Source: Bolinopsis microptera (taxonomy: Eukaryota > Ctenophora > Tentaculata > Lobata > Bolinopsidae). From it: a DNA stretch of 60,000 bases. How positions within the stretch are numbered: position 1 is the first letter of the stretch; each line of letters starts with the position of its first letter. The stretch spans positions 18,185,118 through 18,245,117 of the forward strand of contig NC_087078.1 in assembly GCF_026151205.1 (NCBI RefSeq), in the 5' to 3' direction. Of the stretch, positions 26,602 through 37,391 are shown piece by piece. The notes below the pieces were generated by a model that worked only from the letters and a program-made list of their open reading frames with translations, had not been told where the DNA came from and searched no databases. A program made the translations under genes and the position numbers.

Positions 26602-27645
26602 CTACTGTATTCTGACAGGCACCGGAGATAAGCCATCTCTCCTGAGAACGCAGGTAATCAGGATAACAACAGCTTCGAAGAGAATGAACGCCAGAGCCAT
26701 GACCCCCATCATAGGCATGTATGTGTAGATCCAAGCTACCATCTTCTCGTAGCAACCCTATCAATGTCACAGTTTTAGGAGGGGGTATTAAGGTTCAATG
26801 TGAATTTGTATTTAGCCATATGAACAACTTTTTTTAACGTTTTTATAGTTTAAATTGTAGAGGCTCCAAACTCGCATTTACTGACAAACTCAGAAAATAA
26901 TTATTTTATTATAACAGGTTGATTATTCCCTTTTGTGCAATTCTTACCCCGTTGTGGATGAGTGGACTATTCCCCATTCCTTGTTCTTCCCCGCATTTGG
27001 GAGTTGGGTTCCACTGGTCCCTCAGCCTGGGTAAAATAATGTTGAGGAATGTTTTCGTAGAAGAATTACAAAATAATATCTATTGTTTCCGTTATATTAT
27101 TATTTATTTTTTCCTTGAAAAAAAAAAGGTGAACAATTAAATGGTACAAAATATTCGCCGAAAATTTCTTTAATAGCGATGACCACCCCACAGATAATGT
27201 CTTCATCGCTGAAGCATTGAGCAACATTGAGCAAGTTATTAGTGATAAATTCAATACCTTTTGCAACAAGAGTCTGGAACGCTGTTGAAATAGGTTTTAA
27301 TCCATATCGTAGCTTTTTGGGCGTTTTCTCGCCAATCAGATGCGTTCTGAATACCACAGCAATCTAAGTGCTTCTGTAGCCAATCAATGCCTGAATAGGA
27401 TATGTTTTAATCGTTTTAAATATCATCCTCTTCAACTAATTTCAATTGTAAACATTTTCTTCGTGTATCTGTTAACAGATAAAAATAGGGCAGATTGAAG
27501 ACCTGCTGTCCGGAAATACCACGGAGGGCACAACTGGAAACAAACATTTGTTTCCACTGTTTTTCTTACCTCCAGTAGTGCTATCATCACGGGGATCATA
27601 GTTAGCTACAGCAGTTACAAACCCAGAGTGGCTGGCTTTTATCGC
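26602..27645 (-). CDS. Tetraspanin tail C: large extracellular loop and TM4 (four exons, 141 aa)
   Basis: Exons (minus): 27645-27570, 27390-27258, 27208-27148, 26757-26602; phases 0 in, then 1, 2, 0. The loop has the tetraspanin cysteine pattern: CCG (HLDCCGIQN), PDSCC, a single Cys (DIICG) and the GC that opens the last exon, six Cys in all. TM4 follows (MGVMALAFILFEAVVILIT), then a short tail RRDGLSPVPVRIQ. Intron 2 of this tail is only 49 bp. No ATG or TM1-3 exons lie between it and tail B. The first exon enters in phase 0, matching the TM3 exon at 36737. It could be an alternative 3' end of the head at 36737-37391 or a headless tandem duplicate. Confidence 0.8.
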
Positions 27646-28554
27646 CTGAAATAACATTTCAGCTACAGTTTCGTTAAATATGACAGAAATCTCAGAAAAT
27701 CTCATGCGATTAAGGAATCGTCCAAATATTACGTTAAAGCAGAATAGGGGAGCTTCTGGAGGTGGAAAACGGGATAAATCTAGCTTTAACTTAATATGTG
27801 AACGATTCCGAACCAGAAAATAAGAGGATGTGATATGTGGATCAAGCACATTATTTTAATGATAAATTTGATCAATCAGGATCCGAAAAGACACGCTGTA
27901 AATATGCTGAGTGGTGCTCATTAATGAGTCAGGATAAGTACCTGAAAATGTTAAGAGTCTCATTTTCTTATCCTAGCAACCGTGAGCGTGGACATAGCAA
28001 CCGGCGGCACTTGCAACCGAACATTTGTGACATGCTACGCAGTATTGATAACGTGAGAACAAACACGTGACTTTACAAACCAAACTACGATTACATAAAT
28101 AGACAAAACTTTGAACAGAAATTAAATCAGCAACTAACTCACAGACTAGTTAACTCACTAACTCACAGACTCACAGACTTGCTTGCTCACTAACTCACAG
28201 ACTCACAGACTTGTTAGCTCACAACACTCTTTCCTTTCTCGTTCCCTCGCTAATTTATCTTTCTCGCACTGCTCACAATATAAAACCAATAATACAATCT
28301 CAACCGTGTAATGAAAGCTTCATAAAATATAAATATCATTTATATAGATTATAATATTATAAATGGATTCTTATGATTATCTTAAAACGCAAACAGATGT
28401 CCTTGAAGCGCATTAAACTTCATTTGTGAACTCTGTAGACAACGGATTAGGCGAAAAACTTAAAATAAGTGTCTTATAAATTATAAAATGATAACCACTA
28501 CTGTCACACTCAATAGAAAGTTAAAATATCGAGTTATTTTCAATCTGGTCAGAT

Positions 28555-28763
28555 CTATTCATCCTTCTTCTCTTCAGCTTCTTTCACAGTTGCTTTCTTC
28601 TTCTTATCTCCCTTGATAGTCCTCACCAGATACCGTGATACACTTTTCCCGATAATAACAAATGTGAATATAAGGAGATATCGCCCGAATTTGTCCCAGT
28701 AGGGTACATTCTTTGATAAGAACAGGTTAATATCAGAGAGGTAGGTGGTCTGCATGCCTTGAT
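28555..28763 (-). CDS. Small single-pass membrane protein or last exon (66-68 codons)
   Basis: An acceptor (CACCCCCTAG|ATC, exon edge 28763) opens a frame with an ATG at 28755 and a TAG at 28557-28555. The peptide reads DINLFLSKNVPYWDKFGRY, one hydrophobic helix (YLLIFTFVIIG) and a Lys/Glu-rich tail (GDKKKKATVKEAEEKK). It is not tetraspanin-like (no GC before the helix). The family is not recognised. It lies between tetraspanin tails B and C on the same strand. Confidence 0.4.
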
Positions 28764-28764
28764 C

Positions 28765-34352: not shown

Positions 34353-34546
34353 CTGGTAATAACGAGTGCAATTTGTACACCCCGCCAAATACGCCACACT
34401 CGACAAAACATTTCAAGAATGTACAGTTTCGTCTGTGAAATGCTACATCGTAGTCGTCATGTCCTGTTTGTGTTAATCTCGTATCTTGTTTATCTGTTGT
34501 TGGCTAGTCCGGGTTTTTGGTAATATGTTTGCAACAGATGTGCAGT

Positions 34547-34744
34547 GTTACGTAAGTGTTACGTAAGTGTTACGTAAGTGTTACGTAAGTGTTACGTAAG
34601 TGTTACGTAAGTGTTACGTAAGTGTTACGTAAGTGTTACGTAAGTGTTACGTAAGTGTTACGTAAGTGTTACGTAAGTGTTACGTAAGTGTTACGTAAGT
34701 GTTACGTAAGTGTTACGTAAGTGTTACGTAAGTGTTACGTAAGT
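34547..34744. repeat. 11-bp tandem repeat, 18 perfect copies
   Basis: The unit is GTTACGTAAGT, containing the palindrome TTACGTAA. It lies about 195 bp upstream (in transcript sense) of the first exon of tetraspanin tail A, in the 2.4-kb intron separating head and tail. Confidence 0.95.
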
Positions 34745-36736
34745 GTTCCAGTGTTACGTTTCTGTGAAGTTAAGTCATCTGTCTGTACATGTTATGATGC
34801 TAAATCCCTCTTAAAAAGCTTAGTAAGAAGTTAGAGTTTGGAAACCAGCCTCTTTTTTGGTTAAAAGTCAGCGAGTGGGAAAAAAAGATAAATTCAAGAA
34901 GTAGAGGTTATTAAATATCAAGCTGATTTTTTAGATTTTTACACCCTCGGGATGTTATTAGTAAAGATTTATTGATATTGCGGCGGGAAAACATTGTTAG
35001 TAAACACATGTTATTTTCCGCATTTTTCCGCACAAACTATTTTTAATCCCGCACTTAACACGTACCACTAACTCACTAATTGCGTTCTTCTTACAATTTT
35101 ACATTTTTATATGTCCACAAAAATGTACTAAATTCCTTCACACTGGTAACATTGTCTCAATATACCAGTTTAGTAATATTGAGTGAGACACAGTAATTCT
35201 CACTCTAAATTGTGACAATGTAATAATTCATCAATTAGTTTAATCAATATTATCTCGCTCTATTCAGGCTTATCACACACTATTCAGGCTATTTCCACAC
35301 AAAAAACTCCGACAGTACACACTAATTGTTACACAGTTCTTAGAGAGATTACACACGAAATACCAACATTACACACATTTATTACATTAAAATACCTTAC
35401 ACTCTACACTACACTATCTCTAAACAGAGAGAGAGAGAGAGAGTTCACAAGGTGGCACATGTAATTAAGTAATTAAACGATCAATTAAGTGATTACTGAA
35501 GTGATTAGCGCTACACAACAACTACAACCAACTGATAAGCATTACGTAATGTTGAGGTAATTACACTGACTCTGGAGATGTGAGGATTTTGTTTTCAGGT
35601 AGCAGCAGGTATGTGTGTTATGTGTAACACATCTGTAGTCTTACTTTAATATCATATAATAACATTGTTATTATATAAGCTAAATAAACAGGCCAGCCAG
35701 CTGGAGATTAAACTAGTCACATTCCCCCGGATTCCTGTAATCTTGATAACAATGATTTTGACGTTGATCCGAGTTATAATGAGTCACGATAGGGATTGAA
35801 GATAATTGAATTTCGGGTGGCACAAGGCCACAGGTACTACCATATAAGGTATAAATGACATCATGTTACATCTAATGTCACTGAACTGATATCATACCCA
35901 CTACAAGTTTGAGATGATCTAAATGATGGTACCATGGTTACAGTCAGAACATTGCCAGGTTGAGTTTTTACTTTTGAATTCCAAGCTGTAACTGAGATTA
36001 AGGTAATAAAGTTTTCCCGATCTACTTTAATCTCTAGAGCTCCTTATCTTGTTCATTGCCTTTATACAATATAAAAGCAAGACCAAAGCTGTGCAGCAAA
36101 CCGTCACACATTAATGTTACTGTAGTTTTTGGTGAGATGACGTGTGTTGTTTGTTTTAGCCACAGCCGCTAAACTAACAGTTAAAACACACAGTGTTTCC
36201 CGACAGAAAGACTGTTTACAAGGTTTACTTAACAACATCTTATTAGCCACAAGTAACAGACATTTTAAATGTAACCCCTCTAATTTAACCAGTCCCTGGG
36301 GACGATCTCACATACCAGACATACCAACTACAACATAGTACATTAAACTACTACAACATAGTACATTAAACTACTTAACATTGTACATTAAACTACTTAA
36401 CACTATACATTAAACTACTCAACATTGTACATTATCTGAGAGAGAGAGAATTTAAGTACACTCTACTGTCCTAACACGTTACATTGTACACTCAGAACAT
36501 CTTACACGGAACACAATACCACATACCAGAATATATGCTACAAATTGTGCTTCTTATTTTATAATAAAACACTGTACCACAACAACATGACAGTATCACC
36601 AGCTATACGTTGTAGAAAATAGTCTCTACAATTACACGCTAATTGGTTTTAATGAGGGTAATTGATACTTACTAATTAGGGATGGTAAATGAGGTAGAAA
36701 AAGATAACAGCAGTGGAAAACACGGACAAAACGTAC
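34745..36736. other. Tetraspanin intron, no exon recognised
   Basis: AT-rich DNA with an (AG)n run near 35423-35442 and a degenerate repeat of TACATTAAACTACT near 36340-36432. Nothing coding was identified on either strand. Confidence 0.5.
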
Positions 36737-37391
36737 CTCATCACTAAAGATAAAGGCCAGGATTCCAGCAACACATTGGAGAATGATGATCAGTCCGAGG
36801 ATCACGGAGTACTGAAGTTTGGATTAACATTAGAATTTATTTAATTGCTGTTTAATTGCTAGTTATTTAATTGATGTAATTTCTTGAAAAACTGAGCTAT
36901 CAATTGTCGAAATCAAAAATATTGCTGAAACTATATTATATGAGGATCAATATAATATAAAATGTGTTAAATAAGAACTCACTGCAAGGAGCATGTTTCC
37001 ACTCTGCTTCATAGCACCGAAACATCCCAGGAATCCCACAACAGCAATGATCAGTCCCACCACAATCAGCATCACTGACACCGGAACAGTCTTGTTGTCC
37101 ACGATCTCATTCCAGTTCTTACCTTCCACCAGGACAACAATACCCACCACGAACAGAACCAGACCTAACACCTGAGAGAGATATGATGTTACTTACTCCA
37201 CATGTAGTGTCATTACACGTGAGGTTATAATTTATATAAAATGAGGTTATCGGTATGCTATCGACCATAAGTTATGACATATTGTTGCCCATAATTGGAT
37301 TCGTATTACATATCAGTAAGCATGCACTCACCCATACGATGCCGTTAAAGACAAACATCAGAGTCTTCATAAGACCCGTACCGACACCCAT
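36737..37391 (-). CDS. Tetraspanin head: TM1, small loop, TM2, TM3 (three exons, 108 aa)
   Basis: Exons (minus): 37391-37332, 37171-36983, 36811-36737, all phase 0. The start is MGVGTGLMKTLMFVFNGIVW, the usual tetraspanin N-terminus. TM1 is VLGLVLFVVGIVVLV, the small loop KNWNEIVDNKTVPV has one sequon, and TM2 IVVGLIIAVVGFLGCFGAMK has the conserved GCFGA-type inner loop. TM3 is YSVILGLIIILQCVAGILAF, ending FSDE at GTACGT. This is the only head found for three downstream tails (A 33247, B 29517, C 26602), each of which begins in phase 0. Predicted products are 245, 258 and 249 residues. Confidence 0.9.

Follow-up and report, generated by a model that had tools for sequence, protein, structure and literature searches.

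A single tetraspanin head followed by three complete loop/TM4 tails in the comb jelly Bolinopsis microptera, a probable case of splicing that exchanges the large extracellular loop

Tetraspanin diversity is usually attributed to gene duplication, and the CCG motif and the paired cysteines of the large extracellular loop are a hallmark of the family. Genes joining a constant N-terminal part to alternative C-terminal parts are known from Drosophila, where lola and mod(mdg4) encode nuclear BTB proteins and mod(mdg4) uses trans-splicing. For human non-conventional tetraspanins, the part of the literature account considered here (PMC6773723) describes splicing that mostly removes transmembrane (TM) segments, makes the loop shorter or incomplete, or alters one end of the protein. 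The same part names the CCG motif for the large loop and holds that the variable domain of this loop explains primary partner specificity, with TM4 and the C-terminus also interacting (PMC6773723). Here we describe a tetraspanin locus of the ctenophore Bolinopsis microptera (order Lobata), which lies on contig C7 in a window of 60,000 nucleotides, i.e., the whole stretch of DNA that was analysed (C7:18185118-18245117; positions below are those of the window unless a contig is named). In this locus a single tetraspanin head with TM1-TM3 stands upstream of three tails (A, B and C), each with a complete loop and TM4, all on the minus strand; very likely, the outer loop that binds partners is exchanged by splicing on an unchanged membrane anchor. 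The genome scanned comprised 264.65 Mb in 232 contigs; as far as the excerpted publication goes, the genome measures 265 Mb, with 346 scaffolds and 13 chromosomes (PMC11797021).

The three head exons sum to 324 nt and encode 108 residues that end with ...AFIFSDE in phase 0. Tail A is entered at 34352, tail B at 30257 and tail C at 27645, in all cases also in phase 0, with GT at the donors and AG at the acceptors. The exons, with their scores against the head and tail profiles described below, are as follows.

37332..37391, minus strand: head exon H1, which carries the start codon and the beginning of TM1; head profile 50 bits
36983..37171, minus strand: head exon H2, with the remainder of TM1, the small loop and TM2; PF00335 match; head profile 126 bits
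36737..36811, minus strand: head exon H3, TM3, phase-0 donor after ...FIFSDE; head profile 56 bits
34207..34352, minus strand: tail A exon A1, loop with CCG; found by the tail profile; exact in NCBI protein P0006
33934..34057, minus strand: tail A exon A2, loop with DSCC and CG; found by the tail profile; exact in P0006
33247..33390, minus strand: tail A exon A3, last loop cysteine, TM4 and stop; found by the tail profile; exact in P0006
30155..30257, minus strand: tail B exon B1, loop start; tail profile 11 bits; acceptor TGATAAG, identical in copy Q (see below)
29755..29963, minus strand: tail B exon B2, loop with CCG...DSCC...CG; found by the tail profile
29517..29657, minus strand: tail B exon B3, last loop cysteine, TM4 and stop; found by the tail profile
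27570..27645, minus strand: tail C exon C1; exact in NCBI protein P0003
27258..27390, minus strand: tail C exon C2, CCG...DSCC; found by the tail profile; exact in P0003
26948..27026, minus strand: tail C exon C3; exact in P0003
26602..26757, minus strand: tail C exon C4, last loop cysteine, TM4 and stop; found by the tail profile; exact in P0003

An earlier sequence-only reading of this DNA had placed a head ending in phase 0 at 37391-36737, the same three phase-0 entry points, and a six-cysteine loop, TM4 and a stop in every tail. Analysis of exons, splice sites and translations gave the same result on each count. The six cysteines were counted by eye in the translations, and the CCG motif and paired cysteines are present in the large loops of A, B and C. 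Spliced lengths are 245 amino acids (aa) for head+A, 258 aa for head+B and 255 aa for head+C; the first two had been given correctly before, while the previous value of 249 for head+C has to be replaced. No internal stops occur in the spliced head+A and head+C. AATAAA or near variants follow within 900 nt of A, B and C, but carry little weight because such hexamers are too frequent in this region. An 11-bp tandem repeat array was seen at about 34544-34752, in the intron before tail A.

Two public proteins join this head to its tails. P0006, listed by NCBI as 'CD151 antigen-like isoform X2' of B. microptera, equals head+A at every residue, and P0003, listed as 'tetraspanin-33-like isoform X1' of the same species, equals head+C at every residue, their heads being identical at 108/108 positions. 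P0006 carries in addition the source tag 'lgn', which we take to denote Logan assemblies of public reads. The proposal of the sequence-only reading that one head is spliced to three tails therefore stands for A and C, since NCBI proteins join both of them; for tail B the joining to this head is still a prediction made from the genomic sequence. Both proteins match the whole tetraspanin domain PF00335 (P0006, 170.6 bits; P0003, 154.7 bits) and tail B alone scores 63.2 bits, the curated cut-off being 32.1. Among the nearest solved chains by sequence are Tetraspanin-7, Tetraspanin-15, CD53, CD9 and CD81. An AlphaFold model of head+C (predicted local distance difference test score, pLDDT, 76.4; predicted template modelling score, pTM, 0.59) contains helices at residues 3-36, 48-75, 78-122 and 206-246. 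With this model as query, Foldseek returned 12 matches at E <= 0.001, all of them tetraspanin-family chains or complexes with one, and the loop of the model alone matched the CD63 loop with a TMt of 0.76.

We consider it probable that the locus is one gene with one promoter, in which alternative 3'-terminal exon sets exchange the large extracellular loop together with TM4. A single pre-mRNA of this minus-strand tetraspanin gene would be made from the one promoter, and the last donor of the head (36737) would be spliced to one of the three exon sets, skipping 2384 nt of intron to reach A, 6479 nt to B and 9091 nt to C. From each set would come the whole large extracellular loop, TM4, the C-terminal end in the cytoplasm and the stop, and presumably a poly(A) site of its own as well. 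All products would have TM1-TM3 and the small loop in common and would differ in the large loop, which in tetraspanins mainly selects the partner protein. The choice would be made by cis alternative splicing with alternative polyadenylation, and the swap of tails would be expected to change the partner proteins.

No second head accompanies tails B and C. Per-exon head profiles were built from 13 related heads, with the window's own head (as P0003) included, and were scanned against all six frames of the 60 kb. The true exons reached 126 (H2), 56 (H3) and 50 (H1) bits, scores that are partly self-matches because the window's head is in the profile set, and the best other match on either strand had 7.2 bits. 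When 26602-36700 was resampled 20 times with a first-order Markov model as a control, the top scores were 9.9 (H1), 8.2 (H2) and 9.4 (H3) bits; neither a second head nor a head remnant above chance was found with these profiles in the window, the interval 26602-36700 included. In a genome scan with P0007, a protein that carries the window's head, other head-like places had at most 42% identity among the best candidates scored. Missed heads before B or C were rejected by the resampling-controlled profiles together with the best candidates of genome scans with PF00335 and P0007. The sequence-only reading had seen no ATG or TM1-3 exons before B or C, which is borne out by these scans, and had proposed to search between the tails with a tetraspanin profile; this search yielded no unseen head, 7.2 bits being the best non-head match.

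The tail profile, in which the window's tails were included, recovered eight of the ten tail exons, seven at 44-83 bits and B1 at 11 bits; the short exons C1 and C3 were not among its best 20 rows. No other tail exon was found in the window, there being no tail-profile match above 5.9 bits among the matches listed. Another main loop or TM4 exon in the window is therefore unlikely.

Related sequences carry the same heads on different tails. The search used the joined head+B sequence as query and matched 126 proteins, of which 120 were listed; 16 of the 18 best matches were cut into head and tail, and P0002 and P0017 were entered as tails only. Several lgn- or jgi-tagged proteins come from contigs of about 1 kb with a full reading frame and without room for introns, and were for this reason taken as complementary DNA; judged by their sequences, the sources would be ctenophores. 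The heads of P0005 and P0016 are identical (101/101) and their tails share 41/126 residues. A partial protein, P0144, has an A-type tail and matches P0001 at each of the 31 residues that precede their divergence, and P0007 bears the window's head (108/108) on an A-type tail that is identical to A at 113/137 positions. The points of divergence lie 0 (P0003/P0006), 1 (P0005/P0016) and 2 (P0001/P0144) residues past the position of the H3 donor. Head identity among the relatives ranges from 69 to 100%. A tree of 20 tails, built without the truncated P0004, groups the eight A-type tails in a single clade (support 100/98) and shows C as a long branch. The tail of P0005 shares 62/132 residues with B, 49/130 with C and 38/126 with A, where 'B-type' is a label of similarity only, since the non-A tails are poorly resolved. 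The head tree does not include P0018 and P0144, both too short for it, and P0122, P0152, P0165 and P0170 were dropped from the trees because they did not match the head/tail cut pattern. Shared heads in transcript-like sequences, apparently of other comb jellies, suggest that the arrangement is old; gene conversion between separate genes could also keep the heads identical in the unplaced sources, and the window has one head. Further tail types sit on similar heads in P0009, P0010 and P0012; for P0010- and P0009-like tails, the B. microptera genome held nothing closer than ordinary relatives.

Comparison of P0006 with P0007 showed differences at 0/108 positions of the head, 11/49 of A1 and 12/41 of A2 (23/90 for A1 and A2 together), and 1/47 of the TM4 exon A3, rates that fit a fixed core with an exchanged loop. 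A second copy of the region is present about 0.25 Mb off on C7, at 17.92-17.96 Mb (examined stretch C7:17922001-17990000). One part, copy P, is an inverted and gapped copy of window positions 26039-58362 that holds H3, A, B and C in the order of the window, within a read-like stretch; the other, copy Q, is a polished partial copy of 26039-31765 with only B and C. Copy Q keeps the frames and splice sites of tails B and C, which together differ from those of the window by 9 synonymous and 6 non-synonymous changes (ratio of non-synonymous to synonymous rates, dN/dS, about 0.17). Tail B accounts for 7 synonymous and 3 non-synonymous changes, with its splice sites kept. Gaps were counted per 100 columns of the joined stretch in blocks of at least 800 columns. 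Single-base gaps in arm P amounted to 3.3-3.7 per 100 columns between about 12275 and 24715 and to 0-0.4 in other blocks, and to about 0.1 in arm Q; the window sequence contains no N. The assembly was made with continuous long reads (CLR), TGS-GapCloser, Purge Haplotigs and pilon, according to the part of the assembly report considered, which also mentions Iso-Seq libraries (PMC10232365). Given the gap pattern of P and an assembly procedure that included CLR, closing of gaps and purging of haplotigs, P and Q are probably a misplaced second haplotype with unpolished gap fill. If P is the second haplotype, the fill independently supports the order H3-A-B-C.

Several points weigh against a single gene with three exchangeable tails. 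The evidence for head+C is confined to the NCBI gene model, because P0003 is an entry of one member with ncbi and uniref tags only. For tail C taken alone, window and copy Q differ by 2 synonymous and 3 non-synonymous changes, which show no constraint; with such counts tail C is uninformative in this respect. The whole-chain match of the head+C model is loose (TM score 0.40 at best, root mean square deviation 15), and head-tail packing is not established by it. In the trees, B-type tails form no supported clade and the head tree is without any starred fork, so that it says nothing on grouping by species. Copy P is without H1-H2, the break falling exactly at the assembly seam; if P were a true duplicate without a full head, this would speak against a fixed head-tail unit. 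For tail B, no head+B protein was found among the 120 listed of the 126 matches, the B1 acceptor TGATAAG is weak-looking, and the closest B relative among the matches listed, P0002 (127/145 residues), begins inside the first B exon and is headless. Either P0002 is a partial contig or it is evidence against a use of B like that of A and C. Segmental duplication as proof of headless genes was considered separately and rejected, as P's loss of H1-H2 falls at the seam of what is probably an unpolished fill.

These points on tail B would be accounted for if only A and C were spliced to the head and B were silent here, or gave headless transcripts, with its frame still open. We regard this as unlikely, though it survives better than the other alternatives: heads of this kind carry B-like tails in P0001, P0004, P0005, P0008 and P0011, and the 7 synonymous against 3 non-synonymous changes of B, together with its kept splice sites, argue against a silent tail. 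Considerably less probable is trans-splicing in the manner of mod(mdg4), with separate transcripts for the head and the tails. A separate open reading frame (ORF) does sit between B and C, and the consulted part of a ctenophore paper (PMC8527503) reports a spliced-leader form as widespread in ctenophores. The ctenophore form, however, adds a short leader and not a coding head, and cis splicing suffices because all parts lie in order on one strand within 10.8 kb. Three separate genes, of which B and C would have lost their heads or had them overlooked or collapsed in the assembly, with the NCBI head+C mis-joined and the shared heads elsewhere due to gene conversion, are the least probable of all: the disturbed second copy about 0.25 Mb away and the predicted nature of NCBI models speak for them, but 26602-36700 holds no head remnant above chance, the window is free of N, copy P keeps the order H3, A, B, C in its read-like stretch, and P0005 and P0016 diverge one residue beyond the donor position.

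One further conserved feature lies between tails B and C.

28555..28755, minus strand: small ORF of 66 aa with one hydrophobic stretch

The sequence-only reading had worried about small same-strand genes between the tails, and this ORF of 66 codons at 28755-28555 is indeed real and conserved, copy Q encoding the identical 66 aa. No Pfam match was obtained for it, and its matches in the genome are only the window and copies Q and P. It was tried as a fourth tail and rejected, for with the AG before 28763 as acceptor (that acceptor only) the frame set by the head's phase 0 runs into a stop after 46 codons. Probably it is a nested gene rather than a further tail. Genes nested in introns are common in the ctenophore Hormiphora californensis, where nested genes are estimated to account for 12.24% of exonic bases, as given in the part of the report consulted (PMC8527503). 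A 27-bp tandem repeat array at about 28767-29090 was observed just before the small ORF.

A second B. microptera locus (L014, C10:15232001-15240000) contains two exons at its positions 1929-2102 (174 nt) and 2160-2351 (192 nt), 57 bp apart and in phase 0 at both ends. The pair spans C10:15233929-15234351; each of its exons encodes the CCG-to-CG part of a tetraspanin loop, and 20 aligned residues are identical; read by eye, a TM3 exon and one more exon precede the pair and a TM4 exon follows. From this layout the two loop exons look mutually exclusive. We put forward tentatively, as something with slightly less than an even chance, that comb jellies use splicing as a general means of tetraspanin partner diversification. 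An old single-head locus would have kept A- and B-type tails across lineages while gaining or losing others (C; those of P0010/P0012 and P0009), and a second gene would have paired loop exons. If this were general in ctenophores, splicing-based diversity of surface organisers would exist in a lineage that has been put forward as the sister group of the remaining animals.

The sequence-only reading had known of no such tetraspanin arrangement, and our literature search agrees: no shared-head/alternative-tail tetraspanin gene was described in the titles and abstract openings searched, subscription papers and preprints lying mostly outside its scope. The human splice-variant tetraspanins share with this locus that one gene gives several products, some with an altered loop or C-terminus; they differ in that exchange of a full six-cysteine loop with TM4 is not found in the part of that account considered (PMC6773723). 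With lola and mod(mdg4) the resemblance is one of layout only, a shared 5' part with variable 3' parts, since those genes encode nuclear BTB proteins and mod(mdg4) is trans-spliced. Because the core is fixed and the recognition half swapped, the natural isoforms would be ready-made chimaeras for separating the roles of core and loop. Compared with the tetraspanin family as a whole, the difference lies in a single head that serves several complete loop/TM4 halves: here a single gene would hold the membrane core fixed and exchange the half that recognises partners.

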